Assembly: GCA_033032175.1 (NCBI GenBank)
Contig: CM065332.1
Span: forward strand, 1,907,501 to 1,971,500
Reading direction: 5' to 3'
Source of the DNA: Saturnia japonica
Taxonomy: Eukaryota; Arthropoda; Insecta; Lepidoptera; Saturniidae
DNA: 64,000 nt
Below the pieces are notes generated by a model. The model was given only the letters and a program-made list of their open reading frames with translations. It ran no database searches and was not told where the DNA came from. Position numbers and translations under genes: made by a program. Positions 25,543-57,633 of the stretch are shown here, one piece after another; position 1 is the stretch's first letter; each line of letters begins with the position of its first letter.

Positions 25543-25551
25543 GCGACAAAT

Positions 25552-25553
<2 letters not shown>
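25543..25553. repeat. Target-site copy 1 of stacked LINE insertions
   Basis: gcgacaaatgt lies directly before the poly(T) of LINE copy A. The same sequence recurs at 31554-31565, between A and B, and at 34929-34940, right of B. Confidence 0.8.
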
Positions 25554-25633
<80 letters not shown>

Positions 25634-25864
25634 CTGACTACACTGTTAGCCTTAGGGGCCCTAAAGCCGCTGCGGCTTTTACAGCTTCACCGGACTTGGG
25701 GGCGAGCGCAGAGGGCACTCAGCCGCGAAAGTTTTGTGGACGACTCGCACGAGGGTGCCAAAGTGGCCGGACCTCGGCTCGGGCGGTCGTCGCGTTCGCA
25801 AATAGGTCGCGATCTATTCGAATCCCTACACCTACGATTCGAGCTAACTAAATATACACATAGG

Positions 25865-25902
25865 CACGTTCCCTTCCTCCTGGGAGGAAGGAAGGAACCG
25901 TG
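25865..25902 (-). other. 3' UTR hairpin of the LINE family
   Basis: cacgttcccttcctcc pairs with the following ggaggaaggaaggaaccgtg (one bulge) around a two-base loop. The same hairpin is present in copies B (31856-31893) and C (51954-51991). Its retention in gag-only copy B suggests a role in recognition by the reverse transcriptase; that role is inference. Confidence 0.5.
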
Positions 25903-26134
25903 CGTATGTGTATTCAGTAATCGGAATGTTTCTACACTAACTAGCGCTAACTAACTAGCGTAAAAAAAGAAAAAAAAAGGTCCCTCACAGAACCTATGTA
26001 CCTGTGTGGTGTGCACGTGTGTATGTTCATACGTGTGTAGTGTTGTATGTAGGTAGCTAAGTGATGCACGTACAGTGTCACTTGTATCGCGCGGGCGGTT
26101 GCCTGACCCAAGGGTTTCACACCGAGGAACGGAC

Positions 26135-29029
26135 CTAGGCTTGGGTTACCGCTAGAGAGGGTGGACGTGACGGGTGTGCTGGAGCGAAATTGACCGCCCG
26201 CCCTCTGCGGAGAGAACGGTGGTTACGCGGGCGTGGGCGCTGGCACGCTCTGTTTGGAGAGACGGATGTGTAATATTTATTCGAATTTTCGATGTGATCG
26301 TCGGGATCAATAAAAATATTGCGCGGCCGGCGTTTGCACCGGATGTCCGTGGGTGCCGGAACATAAGTGGCGGCTGTTTTTATTAACGGATTCGCGTGGT
26401 TCGACGCGGTGTCGAAATACGAACGGGAGAGCTGTTTAACGTAGGCATGTATCGAAGGAAGCTCCATATCTCTATGGAGATCTACGCTTCGAACATACCA
26501 CGGGGCCCCGGTGAGACGATAGAGGAACCTATTCTGTATCGATTGTAACCGTTTGAAACTCGACTCGGACATATGTGCGAACACGGCGCAACTGTATGTC
26601 AAAATTGGTCGAATACACGTCTTGTAGAGCGTGAGCTTATGTCGCGTGGACATTTTACTCACCGAACACAACAGAGGATGCAACCGGCCCAGGACCCACG
26701 CGGCCCTGTTCCTAACCTTACGGATGTGGGGTCTAAAAGAGAGCCTACTATCTAGGGTTACCCCTAGATATTTGGTCTCTCTTACATACGGAATCGGATT
26801 ATCGTAGAGCTTAACAGGTTTAAGCTTCCACGGTATCTGTGACGAATCCGCATCGAAGAGCATCGCGGCGCTCTTCGAGGGATTAACGGCTATACGCCAC
26901 TCGTTAAACCACTTCCCGAGAGTGGTCACGGAGCGTTGGACTTTGTGTCTGAGGTGGGATCTATTCCTATCTGAGGCATATAAGACTGTATCGTCAGCGT
27001 ATAGCCCTACCTCGACCTCCGGTAGTCGAGGTAGGTCACTGACGTACAGGTTAAATAGGCTAGGAGCCAGGATCGAACCTTGGGGAACGCCTGAGCGTAT
27101 TGGACGGAGCGTGGACAATTCACCTTCTACTCTATAGCGAAAGGTGCGATCTGTTAGATAGTCGCGAATTATTTTAATTAGCCTATCGGGGACTTCAAAG
27201 TGATACAACTTGTAGATCAATCCCTCGTGCCAGACCTTATCGAAGGCCTTGGCAACGTCGAAAAAGACCGCAAGTGTACGGCGGGGTTTATATAATTCAG
27301 CAAAATTAAATGCAACGTGCTCCGTGAGGCGGTGCACTTGATGAGTGCAAGAATATCTAGCACGGAAACCGAATTGCTCAGGCGGATAGAGGTCTTTCTC
27401 CTCTATTACTGACTTGAGACGGTTCAGAAGGATCCGCTCGTACATTTTCCCTAAAGTATTTAGGAGACTGATCGGGCGATAGCTGTCGGGAAGCGACGCG
27501 CTCTTGCCGGGCTTACGGATACCTATGACTATGGCCTTTTTCCAGGCGGCTGGAAAATGGCAGTGGGCTATGGCTACATTGAAGATGCAGACCAAAAGAG
27601 CTATGAGGCGATCGGGAAGAAGTCTAAGTACTTCATTCCTGATCCCGTCGGGACCTGGTGCTTTTCTAAGCTTAAGGCTTTTTATAATGGAAAGAACCTC
27701 CTCAGACGTGACTGGGGACAGGGAGTCTGTCGCGGGGAGCTTATCCAGCTCCCGCACGCATCCATCGATACCCTCGACCCGGTCGGTATTTGCATCGACA
27801 CTGTTCGGAGAGCACTGGCTCTCCAAACAAGTGGCGAGGCACTCCGCCTTGTCGCTGCTATCGAAGGCGAGCGGTATACCGGGACCCCTCTCGAGGGGGG
27901 GCATAAGATAAGAAGCCTCTATTTTGAGGCTGTGAGCTAATTTCCAGTAAGCCAGATGCGACGGCCTTAGCCCTTCGACGAGGGCGTCCCATCTGTGACT
28001 TCTGAGTTCTAATATACGGGCTCTAACCGATCTTTGAAGTGCGCGTAAACGTGCGCGGTTTTCCTCGGTCGGATAGTGGTCGTGCGCACGAGTCGCCGCG
28101 TTCTTTTCCGTCAACAACGCCCGCACGTCGGCAGGGAGTACGAAGTGGCGATCGCTCGCCTCTTCGACCTCTCTCGAGGCCTCTCCGATGCCGGCCTGCA
28201 GGTGGTCGACCAGGGAATCGATCGCGAGATCTACGTCCGCAACGGACCCCAATACGTCCGGGATCCTATCTAAGCTGGACGAGGACGGCCTGTCCGCAAG
28301 ATAATGTTTTAGCTTGGCATAGTCAACCACTTGGACCGAAGGAGGGCTAGAGTCGTCTGGTTGACCTAGCTGCATGATGACCGGACGGTGGTCGGAGTCG
28401 AGCTCGTGTACGACCCGAATGAGTCGTAACCGAAGCGCGATACCTTTAATGAGAGCTACATCAAGCACTGTCGGCATACAGTTGTCTTGAAAGTGGGTGG
28501 GAGTGGGTGGCGCTATGACATCAAAGTTTAGCACGTTCGTTAGCTCTTCGAGTTTAACCCCGTTACTGGAGTCTCTCCAATTGCCAAACGAAGTGTGTCC
28601 ACAATTGAGGTCACCCGCTATAATGACCGATTCACCGAGCGAAAGTAGCTTTTCTAGGTCAGACCTGAGAGGCTCTTTCCTCGGCGAGAGATAAACTGAG
28701 ACTAACGTTATGGACGGGTGGTCGGTCATTCCTAGTCTACACACGGATACTTCCATATTGGTAAGTATCGGAGGATCTACCGGCGTACAATATAACGATC
28801 GTTTGTAATAAATGAGAGTGCCGCCCCCGCGGCCGGCCCGGTCATTTCTTACAATATTGTAGTTCGCGATTTTTGGATCACGTTTAGCACGCTTTAAGAG
28901 CGTCTCCTGCACTAAAAGAACATCTATTTGGTGATCTTTAAGAAAGGTCGCGACGAGATCACGCTGCGGATATAGGTTCCGTGCGTTAAAAAACGAAAGA
29001 TTTAACGCTTTCGGTTTAAACTTTGCCAT
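26135..29029 (-). CDS. LINE ORF2 of copy A: endonuclease and reverse transcriptase
   Basis: 964 residues, fully open. Residues 1-220 are an APE-type endonuclease: N15 in FFNARNL, E42 in QETLL, D140 and N142 in GDLNCGH, and S212-D213-H214 in the SDH motif. A linker follows. Residues 455-720 are reverse transcriptase: KAPGPDGI (455-462), YRPISLLN (517-524), D591 in FFDVAKAFDKVW, GVPQGS (647-652) and the YADD box with D679-D680. The C-terminal part (LTYSCAVFAHM ... LQSIQNRFLYRLTGAPWYVR) is typical of Jockey-clade ORF2. No RNase H and no cysteine knuckle at the end. It nicks target DNA and primes cDNA synthesis there. The start at 29029 overlaps the ORF1 end by 14 nt in another frame, so translation would need reinitiation or a termination-linked start. 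Confidence 0.95.
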   Translation of the reverse strand: MAKFKPKALNLSFFNARNLYPQRDLVATFLKDHQIDVLLVQETLLKRAKRDPKIANYNIVRNDRAGRGGGTLIYYKRSLYCTPVDPPILTNMEVSVCRLGMTDHPSITLVSVYLSPRKEPLRSDLEKLLSLGESVIIAGDLNCGHTSFGNWRDSSNGVKLEELTNVLNFDVIAPPTPTHFQDNCMPTVLDVALIKGIALRLRLIRVVHELDSDHRPVIMQLGQPDDSSPPSVQVVDYAKLKHYLADRPSSSSLDRIPDVLGSVADVDLAIDSLVDHLQAGIGEASREVEEASDRHFVLPADVRALLTEKNAATRAHDHYPTEENRARLRALQRSVRARILELRSHRWDALVEGLRPSHLAYWKLAHSLKIEASYLMPPLERGPGIPLAFDSSDKAECLATCLESQCSPNSVDANTDRVEGIDGCVRELDKLPATDSLSPVTSEEVLSIIKSLKLRKAPGPDGIRNEVLRLLPDRLIALLVCIFNVAIAHCHFPAAWKKAIVIGIRKPGKSASLPDSYRPISLLNTLGKMYERILLNRLKSVIEEKDLYPPEQFGFRARYSCTHQVHRLTEHVAFNFAELYKPRRTLAVFFDVAKAFDKVWHEGLIYKLYHFEVPDRLIKIIRDYLTDRTFRYRVEGELSTLRPIRSGVPQGSILAPSLFNLYVSDLPRLPEVEVGLYADDTVLYASDRNRSHLRHKVQRSVTTLGKWFNEWRIAVNPSKSAAMLFDADSSQIPWKLKPVKLYDNPIPYVRETKYLGVTLDSRLSFRPHIRKVRNRAAWVLGRLHPLLCSVSKMSTRHKLTLYKTCIRPILTYSCAVFAHMSESSFKRLQSIQNRFLYRLTGAPWYVRSVDLHRDMELPSIHAYVKQLSRSYFDTASNHANPLIKTAATYVPAPTDIRCKRRPRNIFIDPDDHIENSNKYYTSVSPNRACQRPRPRNHRSLRRGRAVNFAPAHPSRPPSLAVTQA

Positions 29030-30929
29030 TGAAAGGCCCTAAGTTATTATTACACGCCTCACGGTCGAGACGTTGTAGTGTCTCTGAGAGGCGGGGGAAC
29101 GCGCAAGCGGTCTTGATGAGACCGAAGCGCTCCAGATGGTCATTGTAGTCAATGAGCTCGCGGATATCGTGCTCGCGAAGGAGCAGTATCATTAAGTCGT
29201 TACTATTAACGACAGCGTTAGCGGGCGCGCGGGGCGCAGGCGCGCGGGGCGCGGGAATATCCATAGCCATAAGGGGCTGTGGATTGGGGCGACGGGGGCC
29301 CCATGCGTTCTGCGATGAACGCACGGGTTGCGGTTGCACCGCGCGGGGTACAGAGAGGCCGGCGGTGGCCGGGGACTGGCGCGGGACCGGCAGCGCGGGA
29401 AATTCCCCTGACGCCAGCGGGGGTTGCGCTTTGATGGCTGAGGTGGGGGGCGCCGCCCGGGGGGCCGCCTGCCTCTGCGTGCGTGGCCGCGTGGTACGCG
29501 GGGCCTTGGGGCAACCGCGATAGTTCGCGGGATGCCCCTCCTCCCCGCATAACACACAGCTCGGGGGGACCACGGAGTCACGCTCGCGCGTGCACTCCCG
29601 TGTGGGGTGGTCCTCTCGGCACTTTACGCACCGCGGACGAGAATGACAGTTACGGGCAGCGTGCCCGTACAGCTGGCAGTTGTGGCACTGCGCAGGCTGG
29701 TGGTTTTTGTGTGGGGGCTCCACGTTAATCCCGGAGAGCCCGCACACCGTCTCTAGCTGGAAGATGGCCTTTCCCTCGGGGGAAAGGTCCAATATGGCCA
29801 CTACCATTTGTAGTGGCCGCTTATCTTTACTGTACATCCGGTGTACTTCCCGGATGGGATAACTTTGCTCCTTGAGCGAGGAGCACACCTCCGACGGGTC
29901 GAGCTCCACCGGAATGCGGCGGATGACCACTCGGAGGACGCGCTCCTCCGCGAGCGAATACGTATAAAATTGCAGACCTTTCTGCCGGAGGAGGGTGGTT
30001 AGTTTACGGTGAGTTTCCGAAGAACTCACCGAAATAGAAATCCCATTGACTATGTTTCTAGCCTTGTGGTAGTCGAGTTTGAGTCTGCGCATCTCATTGC
30101 AGACTCCCATCCAGGCTGCCTTGTCCCGGATTATGATTGGAGGTGGGGCACGCTCTTTTTTCCCGCCGGCGGGCGCGGGGAGCTGGGAGGACGCGGGGGC
30201 GGCGGCGCCCCTGACTACTGCCTTAGCTATTACCTTAGGCGCCGGTTGAGCAGTCGGACTGCTACGCGCCGTTCGCTTACGCGACGCCACGACGGTGAAG
30301 CCGTCGTTCTCGGTATCCATCTCCGGAGATGGATCCGGATTCGCGGGCGAGTCTTGTTCGACCGGAAGGGCCGAAAACGAATTTTTCGTCTTTAACGCGG
30401 TTTCCGTGGATCGCGCGGGACGGACGTACGGACTATTTTTGGTAACCCTAGATTGTGACCGCGAATTTCGCGGCCCTCGCCTGACGGAGGCGGGGCTTGA
30501 CCCGCGCGATTGGCTAGTCGGGACAGGGGGCGTGGCCGTAGGCGCGGCCATGGCCCCGGATGACGCGGCGGACAGGCGCGTAACGCTGCGCGCGGGACGT
30601 TTGGGCGCGACGCCGACTGGCGCGGCGCCAGTGGATGTAACGGTCGCGGCCGTGACGTCATCGGCCGCCTTGCTACCTGAAGCGGCCGCCTCGCTACCTG
30701 AAACGGCCTCATGACGGGTCGCGGTCGCAGCGGTGCGACGCACGCAGGCGTTCTCAGGTAGATTACGGTATTCCTCGTCTAGAGAGGGACACCGTAATAC
30801 GACGAAATTTTGATAGCGCTGGTATTGAAACTCCAGCGCTTTCATCCTGGCTTGCAACTTGCCTATGCAAGTGGCCAGGTCGGCAACGTTATTTGCCATG
30901 GCGGCAGAAGAGGGAGGACAGTGGGACAT
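29016..30929 (-). CDS. LINE ORF1 of copy A: gag-like RNA-binding protein
   Basis: 637 residues. An N-terminal hydrophilic helix-prone part (1-60) is followed by a long Ala/Pro/Ser/Thr-rich low-complexity part (65-265). A conserved PRE_C2HC-type region follows at about 330-410 (VLRVVIRRIPVELD ... QLETVCGLSGINVE). Three zinc knuckles follow: C415-C418-H423-C428, C434-C437-H441-C446 and C458-C461-H466-C473. A Pro/Arg-rich tail ends the protein. Such proteins coat the element RNA and, in Drosophila relatives, help its nuclear delivery. Compared with copy C the end differs: an indel replaces the KN-stop ending by NNLGPFNGKV, extending ORF1 into the start of ORF2. Confidence 0.93.
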   Translation of the reverse strand: MSHCPPSSAAMANNVADLATCIGKLQARMKALEFQYQRYQNFVVLRCPSLDEEYRNLPENACVRRTAATATRHEAVSGSEAAASGSKAADDVTAATVTSTGAAPVGVAPKRPARSVTRLSAASSGAMAAPTATPPVPTSQSRGSSPASVRRGPRNSRSQSRVTKNSPYVRPARSTETALKTKNSFSALPVEQDSPANPDPSPEMDTENDGFTVVASRKRTARSSPTAQPAPKVIAKAVVRGAAAPASSQLPAPAGGKKERAPPPIIIRDKAAWMGVCNEMRRLKLDYHKARNIVNGISISVSSSETHRKLTTLLRQKGLQFYTYSLAEERVLRVVIRRIPVELDPSEVCSSLKEQSYPIREVHRMYSKDKRPLQMVVAILDLSPEGKAIFQLETVCGLSGINVEPPHKNHQPAQCHNCQLYGHAARNCHSRPRCVKCREDHPTRECTRERDSVVPPSCVLCGEEGHPANYRGCPKAPRTTRPRTQRQAAPRAAPPTSAIKAQPPLASGEFPALPVPRQSPATAGLSVPRAVQPQPVRSSQNAWGPRRPNPQPLMAMDIPAPRAPAPRAPANAVVNSNDLMILLLREHDIRELIDYNDHLERFGLIKTACAFPRLSETLQRLDREACNNNLGPFNGKV

Positions 30930-31553
30930 TTTTATTTAATTTTAAATTTAAAGGCCTCCCTGCCTTAGGGGCAGGGGGGTGCGCCAAAAAATTTAAAAGA
31001 CTATCGGAGTCGGCAAGAGACCTGTTGTCAAGGTGCAATGACACACAGGAAGGACCTATCAACCCTAAGGAGCCCTAACAAGCCCGGGGCCGAGGACGCA
31101 GACCGGTAATTAAACCGGGCTAGGCCCAAACAGGTTCCCGGGGATGGAGTGTGCAGGATCGGAAGGTTTGGCAGGAGACACCTGGGGCAAGACTATGCGA
31201 TAACCGCAAAGGCCTAGATTCCCAGGCCCGTCCGAGTCTGGCTGTTTGCCTCTGAAGGAGACAACCAGCGGGCTGCTCGGGTCACGCCCCACTTGCCTTC
31301 GTTGGCACCGTCAGGTATCCAGCAAGTGACCACAAAACCGTGGATTTACAAAAAAAAAAAAAAAAACAAGCAAGTCGCACCGAAAAGTGCGGTTTACCAC
31401 GCGAGCGTTAGACACCAGTTGGTTTACGTCGTAATTGCAACAATATATTTGAAATAAATTCCAAATATAAGATCGCAACAATTAAGTCACGTGATGGTCA
31501 AAATTGAAAACGGAGCGACACGTCCGTTCGCAACAGTGACCAAATCGGAACCC
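30930..31553 (-). promoter_or_regulatory. 5' UTR and internal promoter of LINE copy A
   Basis: About 620 bp between the element start and the ORF1 ATG. Close to the 5' end GGACGTG stands about +28, matching the downstream promoter element of TATA-less insect LINE promoters, and CACGTG follows. A stem of 7 bp is formed by 31290-31296 (cacttgc) and 31322-31328 (gcaagtg). In B and C the arms read cgctcac and gtgagcg, three compensated pairs. A second GC hairpin (ctgccttaggggcag) lies just before ORF1. Confidence 0.65.
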
Positions 31554-31565: not shown

Positions 31566-31622
<57 letters not shown>

Positions 31623-32313
31623 TCTGACTTCACTGTTAGCCTTAGGGGCCCTAAAGCCGCTGCGGCTTTTACAGCTTCACCGGACTTGGGGGCGAGCGCG
31701 GAGAGCACTCAGCCACGAAAGTTATAAGGACGACTCGCACGAGGGCGCCAGAGTGGCCGGACCTCGGCTCGGGCGGTCGTCGCGTACGCAAATAAGTCGC
31801 GAACTAACTGAATCCCTACACCTACGATTCGAGCTAACTAAATTATACACATAGGCACGTTCCCTTCCTCCTGGGAGGAAGGAAGGAACCGTGCGTATGT
31901 GTATTCAGTAATCGGAATGTTTTCTACACTAACTAGCGCTAACTAACTAGCATAAAAAAGAAAAAAAAAAGGTCCCTCACAGAACCTATGTACCTGTATG
32001 GTGTGCACGTGTGTTTGTTCATACGTGTGTAATGTTGTATGTGGGTAACTAAGTGCTGCACGTATAGTGTCACTTGTATCGCGAGGGCGGATGCCTGACC
32101 CAAGGGTTTCATACCGAGGAACGGACCTAGGCTTGGGTCACCCGCTAAGGAGGGTGAACGTATGGAGTGTGTGCGGGAGCGAATTTGACCGCCCGTCCTC
32201 TGCGGAGAGAACGGTGGTTACGCGGGCGTGGGCGCTGTCACGCTCTGTTTGGAGAGACGAATCGATATATTTTATTGTACATATGAGAATAAAACTTTTT
32301 GCGCGGCCGGTGT

Positions 32314-34305
32314 TTATGCCGGGTGGTCGCGTGTTTCGGAGTCGAGACGGTGTAACGTCTCAACGAGGCGGGGGAAGGCGCATATGGTCTTGACGAGACC
32401 GTAGCGCTCTAGGTGGTCATTGTAATCAATGACCTCCTGAATGCCGTGTTCACGAAGGAGCAAGATCATGATATCATTGCTCGCAACGTTGGAGGGAGCG
32501 CGGGGCGCGGAATTATCCATAGCCATACGAGGCTGTGGATTAGGGCGACGGGGCCCCCATGCGTTCGGAGCCGAACGCACGGGTTGTGATTGACCGCGAG
32601 GCGCGGGAGGGCCGGCGGCGGCCGGGATCTGGCGAGGGACTGGAAGCGCAGGAAATTCCCCTGGCGCCAGCAGGGGTTGCGCTCGGAGGGCTGAGGCGGG
32701 AGGCGCCGCCCGGGGGGCCGCCTGCCTCTGGTGCCGAGGCCGCGTGGTGCGCGGAGCTTTGGGGCAACCGCGATAATTCGCAGGGTGCCCCTCCCCTTCG
32801 CACAGTACGCAGCTTGGGGGGGTGGTGGAGTCACGCTCGCGCGTGCACTCCCTAGTCGGGTGGTCCTCTCGGCACTTGACGCACCGCGGACGAAGATGGC
32901 AGTTACGGGCGGCGTGCCCGTAGAGCTGGCAGTTGTGACACTGCGAAGGCATGTGGGTTTTGTATGGGGGCTCGACGGTGACGCCGGAGAGCCCGCATAC
33001 ATTTTCCAACTGAAAGATTGCCTTTCCCTCGGGGGAAAGGTCTAGAATGGCCACTACCATTTGTAGAGGCCGCTTCTCCTTGTTGTACATTCTATGTACC
33101 TCTCTGATAGGATAATCTTGCTCCGCGAGCGAGGAGCACACCTCCGCGGGGCTGACTTCCACCGGAATACGGCGGATCACCACGCGGAGGACGCGCTCCT
33201 CCGCAAGGGAGTATGTGAAAAATTGAAGCCCTCTCTCCCGGAGGAGGGCAGTGAATTTACGGTGAGTATCCGAAGAACTCACCGTAACGGAAATACCATT
33301 AAGGGTATTTCGAGCTTTGTGGTATGGCAGGTTAAGCCTGCGCAACTCATTTACCAGAGTCGTCCAGGCCGCTTTGTCCCGGACGATAATAGGAGGTGGG
33401 GGGCGCTCTTTTTTCCCGACAGCGGGTGCGGGGAGCGCGGAGGACGCGGAGGCGACGGCGCCACTGACCGTTTTCACGGTTTTTGTTGCGCGAGACGGTT
33501 GCGCAGTTGGACTAATACGCGACGGGCGTTTGCGCGACGCGACAACGGTAAAACCGTCATTTGGGGCCGCGGTATCCATCTCCGGAGACGAATCCGGGCA
33601 CGCGGGCGAGTCTAATTCGACCGGAAGGGCCGAAAAAGAATTGTTTGTTTTCACCGCGGTTTCTGTGGAACGCGCGGGACGGACGTATGGGCTATTTTTA
33701 GCCGACCTAGATTGGGACCGCGAATTGCGCGGCCCTCGCCAAACGGACGCGGGACTTGACCCGCGCGAATGGTTAGTCGGGACTGGGGGCGTGGCTACGG
33801 CCCCGGATGACGCGACGGATGGACGCGCGACGCTACCTACGTTTCTCCACGACGAAACGCGTGGAGGCGCGGCGCCGACGGGTGCCGCGTCAGTCGGCTT
33901 GACGGTTGCTACAGAGGGCGCATCGCTCGCAGAAGCGGCCCCCTGATTGGTCGCGGCGGACGGACGCGCGACGCTGCCTGCGTCTCTCCACGACGCGACA
34001 CGTGGAGGCGCGGCGGTTACTGGCGCGGCGCCAGTCGGCCCGGCTGTCCCGGCAGAGGGCGCACCGCTCGCATAAGCGGCCCCCTTATTGGCTGTGGTCG
34101 CAGCGGTGCGACGCACATTCGGAGTTTTCGTCAACGAGTCGAAAAACTCGTCTTCGGCCGTAGGGTAACGCACGAACATAAAGTTCCGATATTTTTGGTG
34201 TGCGAGTTCCATCGCTTGTATTCTGTCCTGTTGATCGCGAATGCAAGCAACCAGGTCTTGCATATTTTTTGCCATTTCGGCGGCATTGGGTGGGGTTTGG
34301 GACAT
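32314..34305 (-). CDS. ORF1 of gag-only LINE copy B
   Basis: 663 residues, fully open. Same plan as ORF1 of A but clearly diverged, most in the N-terminal half. The C2HC-associated region and all three zinc knuckles (CHNCQLYGHAARNC, CVKCREDHPTREC, CVLCEGEGHPANYRGC) are kept. It contains a tandem duplication of a 47-residue unit: residues 73-119 and 120-166, both with AAPPRV.SWR..GSVARPS. The stop codon falls at the deletion junction: the last codons (DHPA-stop) come from sequence that encodes DIRCK in ORF2 of A, read in another frame. An intact frame after this divergence suggests ORF1 function has been maintained. Confidence 0.88.
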   Translation of the reverse strand: MSQTPPNAAEMAKNMQDLVACIRDQQDRIQAMELAHQKYRNFMFVRYPTAEDEFFDSLTKTPNVRRTAATTANKGAAYASGAPSAGTAGPTGAAPVTAAPPRVASWRDAGSVARPSAATNQGAASASDAPSVATVKPTDAAPVGAAPPRVSSWRNVGSVARPSVASSGAVATPPVPTNHSRGSSPASVWRGPRNSRSQSRSAKNSPYVRPARSTETAVKTNNSFSALPVELDSPACPDSSPEMDTAAPNDGFTVVASRKRPSRISPTAQPSRATKTVKTVSGAVASASSALPAPAVGKKERPPPPIIVRDKAAWTTLVNELRRLNLPYHKARNTLNGISVTVSSSDTHRKFTALLRERGLQFFTYSLAEERVLRVVIRRIPVEVSPAEVCSSLAEQDYPIREVHRMYNKEKRPLQMVVAILDLSPEGKAIFQLENVCGLSGVTVEPPYKTHMPSQCHNCQLYGHAARNCHLRPRCVKCREDHPTRECTRERDSTTPPSCVLCEGEGHPANYRGCPKAPRTTRPRHQRQAAPRAAPPASALRAQPLLAPGEFPALPVPRQIPAAAGPPAPRGQSQPVRSAPNAWGPRRPNPQPRMAMDNSAPRAPSNVASNDIMILLLREHGIQEVIDYNDHLERYGLVKTICAFPRLVETLHRLDSETRDHPA

Positions 34306-34913
34306 GTTTTTAATTGAGGCCTCCCTGCCTTAGGGGCAGGGGGGTGCGCCAAAAATTAAATACGACTATCCGAGTCGGGCAAGAGTCCTGTGGTCAAGGT
34401 GCAATGACACACAGGAAGAACCTATCGGCCCTAAGGAACCCTAGCAAGCCCGGGACTGAGGACGCAGACCGGTAATTAAACCGGGCTAGGCCCAAACAGG
34501 TTCCCGGGGATGGAGTGTGCAGGATCGGAGGGTTTGGCAGGAGACACCTGGGGCAAGACTATGCGATAACCGCAAAGGCCTAGATTCCCAGGCCCGTCCG
34601 AGTCTGGCTGTTTGCCTCTGAAGGAGACAACCAGCGGGCTGCTCGGGTCACGCCCCGCTCACTTTAGTTAGCACCGTCAGGTATCCAGTGAGCGACCACA
34701 AAACCGTGGATTTACAACAAAAAAAACAGCAAGTCGCACCGAAAAGTGCGGTTTACCGCGAGCGTTTGACACCCGTTTGGTGTACGTTGATATTACCAAA
34801 GTATATTTGAAATAAAATTCCAAACATACAATCGTAAATAATAGTCACGTGATGGTCAAAATTGAAAACGGAGCGACACGTCCGTTCGCAACAGTGACCA
34901 AATCGGAACTCCC
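34306..34913 (-). promoter_or_regulatory. 5' UTR and internal promoter of LINE copy B
   Basis: Starts GGGAGTTCCGATTTGG with GGACGTG about 28-30 nt in. It carries the C-type version of the conserved stem (34656-34662 cgctcac with 34688-34694 gtgagcg). Overall near-identical to the 5' UTR of copy C, unlike ORF1. Confidence 0.6.
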
Positions 34914-34927
34914 CGCCAGGTAAGTAT
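34914..34927 (-). other. U1 snRNA 5'-end sequence fused to the LINE 5' end
   Basis: On the - strand these bases read ATACTTACCTGGCG, the first 14 nt of insect U1 snRNA as I know it, placed exactly between the element start (GGGAGTTCC) and the target-site copy, with one extra G (34928) outside it. Copies A and C begin at GGG/GGAG and lack this segment. A template jump of the reverse transcriptase from LINE RNA to U1 RNA, copied to its very 5' end, explains the position. On the + strand it reads cag|gtaagtat, a consensus splice donor. Confidence 0.6.
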
Positions 34928-34928
34928 C

Positions 34929-34940
34929 GCGACAAATGTC
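34929..34940. repeat. Target-site copy 3, right of LINE copy B
   Basis: gcgacaaatgtc, followed by unrelated genomic DNA (gatagaagcc). Confidence 0.8.
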
Positions 34941-35284
34941 GATAGAAGCCATTATTTATAGAGATCTACAGATCTCTCGGTTATCGCAGATGCTTTTTAA
35001 TAGTAATATGCCTACCGCCTGGTATAGAGACAGTAACTTTCTCGTAATTTAATTAAAACTCAATTACATTCACTACAAATTACTACAGATCACTACAATT
35101 TACTACAAATCACTACAAATTACTACAAACTACATCCAGCAACAAAGGAATCAAATACGCGACTTCCAAGAATGTTTTCTGATGACATAATTTCACACCC
35201 GTCCTTTTAATTACATTCTAAACAAAGTTCATTTTTATGATAACCAAACAGTTGATTTATTATACATATATGGATATTTAACAT
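34941..35284. other. Flank of LINE stack; short ACTACAA repeats
   Basis: Around 35083-35135 the phrase cactacaaattactaca repeats several times. Otherwise nothing recognised. Confidence 0.45.
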
Positions 35285-51679: not shown

Positions 51680-51690
51680 GACAACTTACG
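51680..51690. repeat. Left target-site duplication of LINE copy C
   Basis: gacaacttacg precedes the poly(T). It is repeated at 57634-57644. Confidence 0.85.
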
Positions 51691-51722
<32 letters not shown>

Positions 51723-52223
51723 CTGACTACACTGTTAGCCTTAGGGGCCCTAAAGCCGCTGCGGCTTTTACAGCTTCACCGGACTTGGGGGCGAGCGCAG
51801 AGGGCACTCAGCCGCGAAAGTTTTGTGGACGACTCGCACGAGGGTGCCAAAGTGGCCGGACCTCGGCTCGGGCGGTCGTCGCGTTCGCAAATAGGTCGCG
51901 ATCTATTCGAATCCCTACACCTACGATTCGAGCTAACTAAATATACACATAGGCACGTTCCCTTCCTCCTGGGAGGAAGGAAGGAACCGTGCGTATGTGT
52001 ATTCAATAATCGGAATGTTTCTACACTAACTAGCGCTAACTAACTAGCGTAAAAAAAGAAAAAAAAAGGTCCCTCACAGAACCTATGTACCTGTGTGGTG
52101 TGCACGTGTGTATGTTCATACGTGTGTAGTGTTGTATGTAGGTAGCTAAGTGATGCACGTACAGTGTCACTTGTATCGCGCGGGCGGTTGCCTGACCCAA
52201 GGGTTTCACACCGAGGAACGGAC

Positions 52224-55118
52224 CTAGGCTTGGGTTACCGCTAGAGAGGGTGGACGTGACGGGTGTGCTGGAGCGAAATTGACCGCCCGCCCTCTGCGGA
52301 GAGAACGGTGGTTTCGCGGGCGTGGGCGCTGGCACGCTCTGTTTGGAGAGACGGATGTGTAATATTTATTCGAATTTTCGATGTGATCGTCGGGATCAAT
52401 AAAAATATTGCGCGGCCGGCGTTTGCACCGGATGTCCGTGGGTGCCGGAACATAAGTGGCGGCTGTTTTTATTAACGGATTCGCGTGGTTCGACGCGGTG
52501 TCGAAATACGAACGGGAGAGCTGTTTAACGTAGGCATGTATCGAAGGAAGCTCCATATCTCTATGGAGATCTACGCTTCGAACATACCACGGGGCCCCGG
52601 TGAGACGATAGAGGAACCTATTCTGTATCGATTGTAACCGTTTGAAACTCGACTCGGACATATGTGCGAACACGGCGCAACTGTATGTCAAAATTGGTCG
52701 AATACACGTCTTGTAGAGCGTGAGCTTATGTCGCGTGGACATTTTACTCACCGAACACAACAGAGGATGCAACCGGCCCAGGACCCACGCGGCCCTTTTC
52801 CTAACCTTACGGATGTGGGGTCTAAAAGAGAGCCTACTATCTAGGGTTACCCCTAGATATTTGGTCTCTCTTACATACGGAATCGGATTATCGTAGAGCT
52901 TAACAGGTTTAAGCTTCCACGGTATCTGTGACGAATCCGCATCGAAGAGCATCGCGGCGCTCTTCGAGGGATTAACGGCTATACGCCACTCGTTAAACCA
53001 CTTCCCGAGAGTGGTCACGGAGCGTTGGACTTTGTGTCTGAGGTGGGATCTATTCCTATCTGAGGCATATAAGACTGTATCGTCAGCGTATAGCCCTACC
53101 TCGACCTCCGGGAGTCGAGGTAGGTCACTGACGTACAGGTTAAATAGGCTAGGAGCCAGGATCGAACCTTGGGGAACGCCTGAGCGTATTGGACGGGGCG
53201 TGGACAATTCACCTTCCACTCTATAGCGAAAGGTGCGATCTGTTAGATAGTCGCGAATTATTTTAATTAGCCTATCGGGGACTTCAAAGTGATACAACTT
53301 GTAGATCAATCCCTCGTGCCAGACCTTATCGAAGGCCTTGGCAACGTCGAAAAAGACCGCAAGTGTACGGCGGGGTTTATATAATTCAGCAAAATTAAAT
53401 GCAACGTGCTCCGTGAGGCGGTGCACTTGATGAGTGCAAGAATATCTAGCACGGAAACCGAATTGCTCAGGCGGATAGAGGTCTTTCTCCTCTATTACTG
53501 GCTTGAGACGGTTCAGAAGGATCCGCTCGTACATTTTCCCTAAAGTATTTAGGAGACTGATCGGGCGATAGCTGTCGGGAAGCGACGCGCTCTTGCCGGG
53601 CTTACGGATACCTATGACTATGGCCTTTTTCCAGGCGGCTGGAAAATGGCAGTGGGCTATGGCTACATTGAAGATGCAGACCAAAAGAGCTATGAGGCGA
53701 TCGGGAAGAAGTCTAAGTACTTCATTCCTGATCCCGTCGGGACCTGGTGCTTTTCTAAGCTTAAGGCTTTTTATAATGGAAAGAACCTCCTCAGACGTGA
53801 CTGGGGACAGGGAGTCTGTCGCGGGGAGCTTATCCAGCTCCTGCACGCATCCATCGATACCCTCGACCCGGTCGGTATTTGCATCGACACTGTTCGGAGA
53901 GCACTGGCTCTCCAAACAAGTGGCGAGGCACTCCGCCTTGTCGCTGCTATCGAAGGCGAGCGGTATACCGGGACCCCTCTTGAGGGGGGGCATAAGATAA
54001 GAAGCCTCTATTTTGAGGCTGTGAGCTAATTTCCAGTAAGCCAGATGCGACGGCCTTAGCCCTTCGACGAGGGCGTCCCATCTGTGACTTCTGAGTTCTA
54101 ATATACGGGCTCTAACCGATCTTTGAAGTGCGCGTAAACGTGCGCGGTTTTCCTCGGTCGGATAGTGGTCGTGCGCACGAGTCGCCGCGTTCTTTTCCGT
54201 CAACAACGCCCGCACGTCGGCAGGGAGTACGAAGCGGCGATCGCTCGCCTCTTCGACCTCTCTCGAGGCCTCTCCGATGCCGGCCTGCAGGTGGTCGACC
54301 AGGGAATCGATCGCGAGATCTACGTCCGCAACGGACCCCAATACGTCCGGGATCCTATCTAAGTTGGAAGAGGACGGCCTGTCCGCAAGATAATGTTTTA
54401 GCTTGGCATAGTCAACCACTTGGACCGAAGGAGGGCTAGAGTCGTCTGGTTGACCTAGCTGCATGATGACCGGACGGTGGTCGGAGTCGAGCTCGTGTAC
54501 GACCCGAATGAGTCGTAACCGAAGCGCGATACCTTTAATGAGAGCTACATCAAGCACTGTCGGCATACAGTTGTCTTGAAAGTGGGTGGGAGTGGGTGGC
54601 GCTATGACATCAAAGTTTAGCACGTTCGTTAGCTCTTCGAGTTTAACCCCATTACTGGAGTCTCTCCAATTGCCAAACGAAGTGTGTCCACAATTGAGGT
54701 CACCCGCTATAATGACCGATTCACCGAGCGAAAGTAGCTTTTCTAGGTCAGACCTGAGAGGCTCTTTCCTCGGCGAGAGATAAACTGAGACTAACGTTAT
54801 GGACGGGTGGTCGGTCATTCCTAGTCTACACACGGATACTTCCATATTGGTAAGTATCGGAGGATCTACCGGCGTACAATATAACGATCGTTTGTAATAA
54901 ATGAGAGTGCCGCCCCCGCGGCCGGCCCGGTCATTTCTTACAATATTGTAGTTCGCGATTTTTGGATCACGTTTAGCACGCTTTAAGAGCGTCTCCTGCA
55001 CTAAAAGAACATCTACTTGGTGATCTTTAAGAAAGGTCGCGACGAGATCACGCTGCGGAAGTAGGCTTCGCGCGTTAAAAAATGAAAGATTTAACGCTTT
55101 CGGTTTAAACTTAGCCAT
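52224..55118 (-). CDS. LINE ORF2 of copy C: endonuclease and reverse transcriptase
   Basis: 964 residues, colinear with ORF2 of A without gaps. About ten differences are visible, such as NARSLLPQ for NARNLYPQ near the N-terminus, CVQEL for CVREL and LKPVIE for LKSVIE. All endonuclease residues (N15, E42, D140, N142, D213, H214) and RT boxes (D591, GVPQGS 647-652, YADD with D679-D680) are present. The start ATG at 55118 is 9 nt downstream of the ORF1 stop, with no overlap, unlike copy A. This suggests reinitiation after ORF1 termination. Likely active by sequence; no obvious lesion. Confidence 0.95.
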   Translation of the reverse strand: MAKFKPKALNLSFFNARSLLPQRDLVATFLKDHQVDVLLVQETLLKRAKRDPKIANYNIVRNDRAGRGGGTLIYYKRSLYCTPVDPPILTNMEVSVCRLGMTDHPSITLVSVYLSPRKEPLRSDLEKLLSLGESVIIAGDLNCGHTSFGNWRDSSNGVKLEELTNVLNFDVIAPPTPTHFQDNCMPTVLDVALIKGIALRLRLIRVVHELDSDHRPVIMQLGQPDDSSPPSVQVVDYAKLKHYLADRPSSSNLDRIPDVLGSVADVDLAIDSLVDHLQAGIGEASREVEEASDRRFVLPADVRALLTEKNAATRAHDHYPTEENRARLRALQRSVRARILELRSHRWDALVEGLRPSHLAYWKLAHSLKIEASYLMPPLKRGPGIPLAFDSSDKAECLATCLESQCSPNSVDANTDRVEGIDGCVQELDKLPATDSLSPVTSEEVLSIIKSLKLRKAPGPDGIRNEVLRLLPDRLIALLVCIFNVAIAHCHFPAAWKKAIVIGIRKPGKSASLPDSYRPISLLNTLGKMYERILLNRLKPVIEEKDLYPPEQFGFRARYSCTHQVHRLTEHVAFNFAELYKPRRTLAVFFDVAKAFDKVWHEGLIYKLYHFEVPDRLIKIIRDYLTDRTFRYRVEGELSTPRPIRSGVPQGSILAPSLFNLYVSDLPRLPEVEVGLYADDTVLYASDRNRSHLRHKVQRSVTTLGKWFNEWRIAVNPSKSAAMLFDADSSQIPWKLKPVKLYDNPIPYVRETKYLGVTLDSRLSFRPHIRKVRKRAAWVLGRLHPLLCSVSKMSTRHKLTLYKTCIRPILTYSCAVFAHMSESSFKRLQSIQNRFLYRLTGAPWYVRSVDLHRDMELPSIHAYVKQLSRSYFDTASNHANPLIKTAATYVPAPTDIRCKRRPRNIFIDPDDHIENSNKYYTSVSPNRACQRPRPRNHRSLRRGRAVNFAPAHPSRPPSLAVTQA

Positions 55119-55127
55119 TGAAAAGCC

Positions 55128-57020
55128 CTAATTTTTATTACTACTCGCCTCGCGATCGAGACGTTGTAGTGTCTCTACGAGGCGGGGGAACGCGCAAGCG
55201 GTCTTGATGAGACCGAAGCGCTCCAAATGGTCATTGTATTCGATGAGCTCGCGGATATCGTGCTCGCGGGTGAGCAGTATCATTAGGTCGTTACTATTGA
55301 CGACAGTGTTAGCGGGCGCGCGGGGCGCAGGAGCGCGGGGCGCGGGAATATCCATAGCCATAAGGGGCTGTGGATTGGGGCGGCGGGGGCCCCATGCGTT
55401 CTGCGATGAACGCACGGGTTGCGGTTGCACCACGCGGGGTGCGGAGGGGCCGGCGGCGGCCGGGAGCTGGCGCGGGACCGGCAGCGCGGGAAATTCCCCT
55501 GACGCCAGCAGGGGTTGCGCTTTGATGGCTGAGGCGGGGGGCGCCGCCCGGGGGGCCGCCTGCCTCTGTGTACGTGGCCGCGTGGTACGCGGGGCCTTGG
55601 GGCAACCGCGATAATTCGCGGGATGCCCCTCCTCCCCGCATAACACGCAGCTCGGGGGGACGACGGAGTCACGCTCGCGCGTGCACTCCCGTGTGGGGTG
55701 GTCCTCTCGGCACTTTACGCACCGCGGACGAGAATGACAGTTACGGGCAGCGTGCCCGTACAGCTGGCAGTTGTGGCACTGCGCAGGCTGGTGGTTTTTG
55801 TGTGGGGGCTCCACGTTAATCCCGGAGAGCCCGCACACCGTCTCTAGCTGGAAGATGGCCTTTCCCTCGGGGGAAAGGTCCAATATGGCCACTACCATTT
55901 GTAGTGGCCGCTTATCTTTACTGTACATCCGGTGTACTTCCCGGATGGGATAACTTTGCTCCTTGAGCGAGGAGCACACCTCCGACGGGTCGAGCTCCAC
56001 CGGAATGCGGCGGATGACCACTCGGAGGACGCGCTCCTCCGCGAGCGAATACGTATAAAATTGCAGACCTTTCTGCCGGAGGAGGGTGGTTAGTTTACGG
56101 TGAGTTTCCGAAGAACTCACCGAAATAGAAATCCCGTTGACTATGTTTCTAGCCTTGTGGTAGTCGAGTTTGAGTCTGCGCATCTCATTGCAGACTCCCA
56201 TCCAGGCTGCCTTGTCCCGGATTATGATTGGAGGTGGGGCACGCTCTTTTTTCCCGCCGGCGGGCGCGGGGAGCTGGGAGGACGTGGGGGCGGCGGCGCC
56301 CCTGACTACTGCCTTAGCTATTACCTTAGGCGCCGGTTGAGCAGTCGGACTGCTACGCGCCGTTCGCTTACGCGACGCCACGACGGTGAAGCCGTCGTTC
56401 TCGGTATCCATCTCCGGAGATGGATCCGGACTCGCGAGCGAGTCTTGTTCGACCGGAAGGGCCGAAAACGAATTTTTCGTCTTTAACGCGGTTTCCGTGG
56501 ATCGCGCGGGACGGACGTACGGGCTATTTTTGGTAACCCTAGATTGTGACCGCGAATTACGCGGCCCTCGCCTGACGGAGGCGGGGCTTGACCCGCGCGA
56601 TTGGCTAGTCGGGACAGGGGGCGTGGCCGTAGACGTGGCCACGGCCCCGGATGATGCGGCGGACGGACGCGCAGCGCTGCGCGTGAGACGTTTGGGCGCG
56701 GCGCCGACTGGCGCGGCGCCAGTTGGTATAACGGTCGCGGCCGTGACGTCATCGGCCGCCTTGCTACCTGAAGCGGCCGCCTCGCTACCTGAAACGGCCT
56801 CATGACGGGTCGCGGTCGCAGCGGTGCGACGCACGCAGGCGTTCTCAGGTAGATTACGGTATTCCTCGTCTAGAGAGGGACACCGTAATACGACGAAATT
56901 TTGATAGCGCTGGTATTGAAATTCTAGCGCTTTCATCCTGGCTTGCAACTTGCCTATGCAAGTGGCCAGGTCGGTAACGTTATTTGCCATGACGGCAGAA
57001 GAGGGAGGACAATGGGACAT
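55128..57020 (-). CDS. LINE ORF1 of copy C: gag-like RNA-binding protein
   Basis: 630 residues with the same domain order as ORF1 of A: low-complexity N-terminal half, conserved C2HC-associated region, then three zinc knuckles (CHNCQLYGHAARNC, CVKCREDHPTREC, CVLCGEEGHPANYRGC) and a Pro-rich tail. It ends EASSNKN. Differences from A cluster in the low-complexity part and the tail. Expected role: binding of element RNA and formation of RNP with ORF2. Confidence 0.93.
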   Translation of the reverse strand: MSHCPPSSAVMANNVTDLATCIGKLQARMKALEFQYQRYQNFVVLRCPSLDEEYRNLPENACVRRTAATATRHEAVSGSEAAASGSKAADDVTAATVIPTGAAPVGAAPKRLTRSAARPSAASSGAVATSTATPPVPTSQSRGSSPASVRRGPRNSRSQSRVTKNSPYVRPARSTETALKTKNSFSALPVEQDSLASPDPSPEMDTENDGFTVVASRKRTARSSPTAQPAPKVIAKAVVRGAAAPTSSQLPAPAGGKKERAPPPIIIRDKAAWMGVCNEMRRLKLDYHKARNIVNGISISVSSSETHRKLTTLLRQKGLQFYTYSLAEERVLRVVIRRIPVELDPSEVCSSLKEQSYPIREVHRMYSKDKRPLQMVVAILDLSPEGKAIFQLETVCGLSGINVEPPHKNHQPAQCHNCQLYGHAARNCHSRPRCVKCREDHPTRECTRERDSVVPPSCVLCGEEGHPANYRGCPKAPRTTRPRTQRQAAPRAAPPASAIKAQPLLASGEFPALPVPRQLPAAAGPSAPRVVQPQPVRSSQNAWGPRRPNPQPLMAMDIPAPRAPAPRAPANTVVNSNDLMILLTREHDIRELIEYNDHLERFGLIKTACAFPRLVETLQRLDREASSNKN

Positions 57021-57633
57021 TTTTATTTAATTTTAAATTAAAGGCCTCCCTGCCTTAGGGGCAGGGGGGTGCGCCAAAAACTTAAAAAGACTATCGGAGT
57101 CGGCAAGAGACCTGTGGTCAAGGTGCAAAGACACACAGGAAGGACCTATCAACCCTAAGGAGCCCTAACAAGCCCGGGGCCGAGGACGCAGACCGGTAAT
57201 TAAACCGGGCTAGGCCCAAACAGGTTCCCGGGGATGGAGTGTGCAGGATCGGAAGGTTTGGCAGGAGACACCTGGGGCAAGACTATGCGATAACCGCAAA
57301 GGCCTAGATTCCCAGGCCCGTCCGAGTCTGGCTGTTTGCCTCTGAAGGAGACAACCAGCGGGCTGCTCGGGTCACGCCCCGCTCACTTTAGTTAGCACCG
57401 TCAGGTATCCAGTGAGCGACCACAAAACCGTGGATTTATAAAAAACAAGCAAGTCGCACCGAAAAGTGCGGTTTACCACGCGAGCGTTAGACACCAGTTG
57501 GTTTACGTCGTTATTGCAACAGTATATTCGAAATAAATTCCAAATATAAGATCGCAACAATTAAGTCACGTGATGGTCGAGAGCACAAACGGAGCGACAC
57601 GTCCGTTCGCGATCAAGACCAAATCGGAACTCC
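57021..57633 (-). promoter_or_regulatory. 5' UTR and internal promoter of LINE copy C
   Basis: Starts GGAGTTCC with GGACGTG 28-30 nt in. Covarying stem arms at 57380-57386 (cgctcac) and 57412-57418 (gtgagcg). Shares the stem region exactly with copy B. Confidence 0.6.

Follow-up and report, generated by a model that had tools for sequence, protein, structure and literature searches.

A propagating gag-only LINE in Saturnia japonica shares TATA-box targeting with its full-length relatives

A stretch of 64,000 nucleotides (nt) from the genome of Saturnia japonica (GCA_033032175.1, CM065332.1, 1,907,501-1,971,500; hereafter the window) carries on its minus strand three related elements of the type without long terminal repeats (non-LTR), A, B and C. 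A and C are full-length long interspersed nuclear elements (LINEs). B is a half-LINE, which has kept the first open reading frame (ORF1), coding for Gag, and has lost the endonuclease (EN) and reverse transcriptase (RT) of ORF2. B belongs to a propagating, gag-only, HAL1-like lineage, and the half-LINE and the full-length form follow one targeting rule, with a tendency to insert some 31 nt past a TATA box on the sense strand. It is probable that the lineage as a whole propagates with its Gag under selection and is copied in trans by EN and RT of the A/C type, both forms choosing the same targets. Within this reading we infer the identity of the helper, a tether to the TATA-binding protein (TBP) or the preinitiation complex, the use of host promoters and the order of events. 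The source genome that was searched comprises 580 Mb in 402 contigs.

The half-LINE lineage

The features of B and its surroundings are as follows.

31566-34911, minus strand: half-LINE copy B, with poly(A) tail, 3' untranslated region (3'UTR), ORF2 remnant, ORF1 and 5'UTR
31566-31619: poly(A) tail of B, appearing as T on the plus strand
32130-32325 (approximate), minus strand: remnant of the ORF2 C-terminal tail, fused to ORF1, interrupted by two stops in the original frame and lacking the DPDD stretch
32314-34305, minus strand: ORF1 (Gag) of B, 663 codons, with PRE_C2HC and three CCHC-like motifs (motifs recognised by eye)
34532-34651, minus strand: 120-nt block of the 5'UTR with zero or one variable column among A, B and C
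34912-34927, minus strand: 16 nt of non-LINE sequence at the 5' end of B; 34914-34927 is identical to the initial 14 nt of the U1 small nuclear RNA (snRNA) genes of the source genome
31553-31565: copy of the target site separating A from B, CGCGACAAATGTC
34928-34940: copy of the target site flanking B towards the promoter, CGCGACAAATGTC
34954-34960, minus strand: TATA box TATAAAT; the B target site ends 33 nt downstream of its first base
25543-25553: third copy of the A/B target site, beyond A
25553-31553, minus strand: full-length LINE A, stacked behind B
26135-29029 and 29016-30929, minus strand: ORF2 and ORF1 of A
51691-57633, minus strand: full-length LINE C, with target copies GACAACTTACG at 51680 and 57634
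52224-55118 and 55128-57020, minus strand: ORF2 and ORF1 of C

The first-pass annotation, made from the letters of the window, had described B (31566..34928) as a gag-only LINE that moved as a short form. The element itself stands, with its LINE part reaching 34911 only, and so does the complete, open ORF1 of 663 residues. The direct join to ORF2 was also seen correctly: past ORF1, B contains only the last ~60-70 codons of ORF2, and the junction removes EN and RT. The DD pair of the lost DPDD stretch is retained in 24 of 26 untruncated ORF2 relatives (23 by pattern, P0025 by eye) and is missing from P0046 and P0050; P0034 is truncated and was not counted among the 26. Odd-length indels had been considered as proof of decay in the ORF2 tail and were dropped, since translation shows that the net frame is kept. 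Splicing was likewise rejected as the origin of the junction, no plausible donor and acceptor pair being visible by eye at the two edges in A.

Duplicated target sites do flank B as described. They do not prove that the deletion preceded insertion, as had been argued from them, because an internal deletion in place leaves target-site copies intact. The evidence that the short form itself moved is the presence of the same junction at other loci. A 301-nt junction probe gave at least 40 genome matches at 96-100% identity, B included (708 first-look candidates), and the top score at 100% is common to 15 of the listed matches, B among them. Several junction-bearing insertions have flanks and target duplications of their own. 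The earlier description identified the half-LINE correctly, with an argument that fails in part. It missed the TATA-box targeting, the larger point, and the U1 graft.

The junction was also approached independently, with the 5' half of B ORF1 as a probe and the best 40 matches taken. Among these, 34 carry the junction. Seventeen are loci already on the junction list; 20 of the remaining 23 were fetched, and 17 of the 20 have the same junction. The other three fetched matches were unreadable (no element sequence at L080 and L089, and L099 ends short), and three were left unfetched. None of the 34 readable matches among the best 40 continues from a B-type Gag into ORF2.

Insertion downstream of TATA boxes

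Target flanks were collected from half-LINE and full-length copies (L009-L047 and L060-L157), with the element start serving as the insertion point where a good target duplication was missing. Merging of related targets by BLAST reduced 72 flanks to 58 independent targets. When the flanks are aligned on the insertion point, the sole clear signal is a TATA box on the sense strand ~31 nt upstream, and there is no strong consensus at the cut site. A strict TATA match, starting at -36 to -29, is found in 32 of the 58 independent targets against a background mean of 5.4 (p 2e-18). The two forms behave alike: 17 of 28 half-LINE targets (background mean 2.3) and 17 of 33 full-length targets (background mean 3.3) have the strict match. 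With one mismatch allowed, 50 of the 58 targets match, against a mean of 19.7.

These figures supersede those obtained with weaker merging, namely 18/30 for the half-LINE, 19/34 for the full-length form and 36/63 for their union. The first half-LINE count started from 40 half-LINE copies and C of the window and retained 35 of these rows. It left out L010 and L018, both stacked behind an element of full length, as well as L019 (5' flank unreadable), L020 (damaged), L021 and L030. L021 and L030 were recovered in the 58-target count, and both have a TATA box. Three of 38 full-length ends were omitted as stacked. In a separate set, the best 40 copies found with an ORF2 probe, 13 have the 5' end at the expected place and two of these are stacked; a TATA box precedes 5 of the other 11 (background 0.08, p 0.001).

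The target duplications, which end at this offset from the TATA box, measure 9-15 nt, mostly 11-13. The usual distance from TATA box to start and the spacing of the open bubble are textbook values, and judged by sequence the insertion points look like RNA polymerase II (Pol II) start sites.

Alternatively, the TATA signal could reflect survival or expression of copies, or a plain preference for A+T, with EN/RT reading an A+T-rich bend ~20-30 bp from the cut. A+T content does have its peak there (0.82, compared with 0.63-0.66 far upstream), the evidence is drawn from sequence, and EN may directly recognise a TATA-like bend. However, TATA at -33 comes out on top when all 4-mers from -60 onwards are scanned, and the offset equals the textbook TATA-to-start distance. 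Dead 5'-truncated copies carry the signal as often as complete ones (9/13 and 9/16), and at the mirror position on the opposite strand TATA occurs in 0 of 23. The equality of truncated and complete copies, together with strand specificity, points to targeting at integration and not to survival of expressed copies, and this alternative is considered unlikely.

Selection on Gag of the half-LINE

Selection was assessed in 40 junction-bearing copies (39 fetched and B). ORF1 is complete in 23 of the 40 and open in 14 of those 23, and the lineage is therefore not one in which ORF1 is broken everywhere outside B. Variants present in at least two copies comprise 31 nonsynonymous and 40 synonymous changes, where a nonsynonymous fraction of 0.742 is expected from the sites (p 6e-8). 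Private variants comprise 137 nonsynonymous or stop and 71 synonymous changes, and differ from the shared ones (Fisher p 0.0012). Since all sampled copies carry the junction, this variation in Gag most likely arose in the short form.

The open Gag could also be due merely to youth, the copies being recent derivatives of an intact form with a dispensable Gag. In agreement with this, the 31 copies within 1.2% of B have 14 nonsynonymous and 8 synonymous shared variants, which does not differ from neutral (p 0.33). The shared variants of the whole sample speak against it, and so do those confined to divergent copies (10 nonsynonymous, 17 synonymous, p 5e-5). A B-type Gag with ORF2, from which such derivatives would come, is absent from the readable best matches given above, although a rarer full-length form may exist. 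Dispensability of Gag is hence improbable. As the closest 31 copies show no departure from neutrality, the signal comes from deeper splits. The half-LINE thus keeps its own Gag under purifying selection, as the first-pass annotation had proposed, in all shared variants taken together; in the closest 31 copies selection is undetected.

The comparison between elements of the window gives a dN/dS of 0.26 and a dS of 0.72 for ORF1 of B against A (618 codons), and a dN/dS of 0.49 for A against C. Residue changes polarised by outgroups number 32 in B and 29 in A/C.

Occupied sites, empty sites and stacks

One target is a high-copy repeat with 787 candidate matches, the best 40 at 99-100% identity. 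The repeat probe contains no LINE and ends ~12 nt before the insertion point. Twenty sites (L158-L177) were fetched from the 39 non-query matches among the best 40, mostly in listed order; L177 adjoins an already known Gag match, and the known occupied site of L145 was left out. A LINE of the A/B/C kind is present at six of the 20 sites, the other 14 being empty. Of these LINEs, five start within ~3 nt of one place, ~31 nt after the start of the TATA box, and about ten additional bases precede the sixth (L177, 84% similar). 5'-truncation is seen in four of the six, including L169, which is only 86% similar. Another target was hit three times and lies ~207 nt before an ORF with a match to DUF7041, which we read as a retrotransposon gag. 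Some of the targets are accordingly repeats themselves.

A and B occupy one target site, the core of which, GCGACAAATGT, occurs three times in the window: left of A (25543), between A and B (31554) and right of B (34929). On the assumption that elements insert at the promoter-proximal place, B is the younger of the two, and its 13-nt duplication would take in one base of A, the first; the reverse order, A after B, is possible. Stacks are found elsewhere as well. An element of full-length type lies directly upstream of L010 and L018 and directly downstream of L021, L027 and L030, and element pieces occur near several other loci. Stacking of full-length 5' ends amounts to 2/13 in the ORF2-probe set and 3/38 in the larger one.

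Shared ends and the probable helper

The ends of B are those of the A/C family, as first described. Identity of B to A is 93.5% in the 3' part, 90.9% in the 5'UTR and 80.6% over most of ORF1; divergence between A and B in the 5'UTR (8.6%) and 3'UTR (5.8%) is far under the dS of ORF1. A, B and C show little or no difference in the ~120-nt block of the 5'UTR, which adjoins a stem in which three pairs have changed on both sides (three sequences only). The informative sites of the 5'UTR are clustered, with 11 consecutive sites joining A and B against C and, later, nine joining B and C against A; neither run length was matched in 10000 shuffles. Exchange between the lineages and constraint on the 5'UTR may both act.

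From the shared ends, the shared choice of targets and the stacking, we infer that the half-LINE is mobilised by A/C enzymes: most likely EN and RT of this type copy it in trans.

As a separate observation, the 5'UTR has a conserved, strongly folding core at 34342-34720 in B, 30980-31360 in A and 57070-57440 in C, and the three compensatory pairs, seen in three sequences only, lie in one stem. Full-length copies have two alternative versions of the first ~65 nt, one of them common to the half-LINE. The proposal that A acquired its 5' end from an RNA of B type is weakened, both variants being found among other full-length copies and that of A in several of them.

The U1 graft at the 5' end of B

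Between the end of the LINE sequence at 34911 and the target duplication, B has 16 nt, of which 14 equal the start of U1. The genome contains 15 matches to U1; 12 were extracted, and 11 of these have the 5' end ATACTTACCTGGCG, the twelfth (low-scoring) having one mismatch. The start of human U1 is quoted in PMC12527174. The 14-mer is unique in the window, and no second place was found there even with three mismatches allowed. The arrangement is that of the snRNA/LINE chimeras: an snRNA segment in sense orientation, 5' of the LINE and within the target duplication. During the synthesis of B, RT probably passed beyond the 5' end of its template and continued on U1 snRNA. No second U1 graft was recognised among the listed copies, a few rows of which have no sure target duplication; the extra bases there are mostly zero or few, mainly G, and L022 has eight.

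Proposed mechanism

In the simplest reading, TBP or the preinitiation complex would recruit the ribonucleoprotein to its target. Cuts would fall near -12 on one strand and near +1 on the other. With the TATA box starting near -31, the ~12-nt duplication would span about -12 to -1 relative to the presumed start. The new copy would come to lie where an existing promoter starts transcription. This promoter would survive the insertion, and the site would stay open to further hits, giving head-to-tail stacks such as A/B.

A more specific form of this scheme can be put forward only tentatively, at slightly less than even credence. In it the Pol II preinitiation complex would serve as the address: Gag or EN would bind TBP or a neighbour and cutting would occur at the edges of the start bubble (~-12 and +1), while Gag would be the targeting part. 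Copies born at +1 of a borrowed promoter would need no promoter of their own and would stack, and a satellite would retain Gag because Gag does the targeting.

Several points weigh against the overall reading. Twenty-six of the 58 independent targets have no strict TATA match, and in eight there is no match even with one mismatch allowed. High-copy repeats are among the targets examined, so that gene promoters are at most putative targets. Selection on Gag is undetected in the copies closest to B. The A/C enzymes are putative helpers of B, and the target sites are putative active promoters. The possibility that a full-length element lost EN and RT by deletion in place, B never having moved as a short form, may practically be dismissed: its ends and target duplications would look the same and the deletion edges have no known cause, but the same junction lies at dozens of loci with their own flanks and duplications, and the differing flanks exclude DNA-level duplication of one locus for the copies examined.

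Comparison with known systems

A literature search for gag-only LINEs pointed to HAL1, HeT-A and Persaeus. HeT-A is a gag-only LINE of Drosophila telomeres, for which RT is thought to come from relatives and Gag is conserved and used for targeting (PMC5537684). Like the half-LINE, it has Gag without its own RT and forms head-to-tail arrays at its target (PMC5537684). Unlike HeT-A, which targets chromosome ends, the present elements use TATA boxes inside chromosomes, with matches inside Mb-scale contigs and flanks on both sides; the relatives of HeT-A diverge much, whereas here the half and full forms have near-identical ends.

HAL1, the half-L1 of mammals, is named in PMC4859970. It resembles B as a 3'-deleted LINE that retained ORF1 and multiplied as a family. 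It belongs to the L1 clade, whereas the LINE of B is of Jockey type. HAL1 is not known to target promoters. In Lepidoptera, Persaeus, a short internally deleted element of the CR1 LINE Zenon, likewise has both ends from its autonomous partner (PMC6740152). However, its first described copy measures 352 bp and has lost all of the ORF except the beginning and the end (PMC6740152), while B has a whole Gag under selection.

TRE5-A of Dictyostelium inserts 47+/-3 bp upstream of tRNA genes, and its ORF1 protein binds TBP in vitro (PMC5391098). It is similar in being a non-LTR element with a fixed promoter offset and a non-autonomous form that behaves alike (PMC5391098), and differs in using the upstream side of Pol III promoters, in contrast to a Pol II-type TATA box with insertion at the expected start. 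TRE5-A provides a precedent for docking on TBP or the preinitiation complex, and HeT-A one for a gag-only LINE with targeting by Gag and head-to-tail arrays. P, Mu, MLV and piggyBac also insert near Pol II start sites (PMC7337890); these are DNA transposons or a retrovirus with a broad preference, whereas here a LINE keeps an offset fixed to a few nt. Chimeras of U1-U6 snRNA and LINE-1 in mammals share with B the sense snRNA at the 5' end of a LINE within one target duplication (PMC13174262). In B the LINE clade is another one and the host an insect, and only the first 14 nt of U1 are present, ending exactly at the U1 5' end.

No report of LINE insertion at TATA boxes or start sites was found in the titles and abstract openings of the open-licence literature, where absence says little. 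TATA-plus-31 insertion would be a targeting class not met in this search; it would account for the ability of a LINE to borrow promoters, and such a LINE would keep producing insertions at promoters. LINEs of the gag-only kind are rare, and the reason for their retention of Gag is an open question in the field. The question is testable here, since the half-LINE and the full-length form are young, near-identical in places and share one sharp targeting rule.

Affinities and minor observations

A domain search found PRE_C2HC in ORF1 of A, B and C, and an APE-type EN and RVT_1 in ORF2 of A and C (964 codons each), while RNase H was not found; by these domains the elements are of Jockey type. Two ORF1 relatives carry the name transposon X-element. 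Eleven of 23 ORF1 relatives have a source that names an animal, and all 11 sources are moths or butterflies. The better named ORF2 relatives are also from moths or butterflies, except one bacterial record, and the weak matches include ant, fish and frog. P0034, filed as a protein of Acinetobacter baumannii, has 52% identity to ORF2 of the A/C-type LINE and is probably insect DNA in a bacterial assembly.

Scans of viral contigs found no relatives of the elements, and Rfam gave no match at gathering score anywhere in the window. The spacing of ORF1 and ORF2 differs between the full-length copies, with a 14-nt overlap in A (29016-29029) and a 9-nt gap in C (55119-55127). Gag of B contains an in-frame tandem duplication of 47 codons (33811-33950 and 33952-34091), the units of which are 81% identical. 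L014 and L029 have 141 nt fewer at the site of this duplication.

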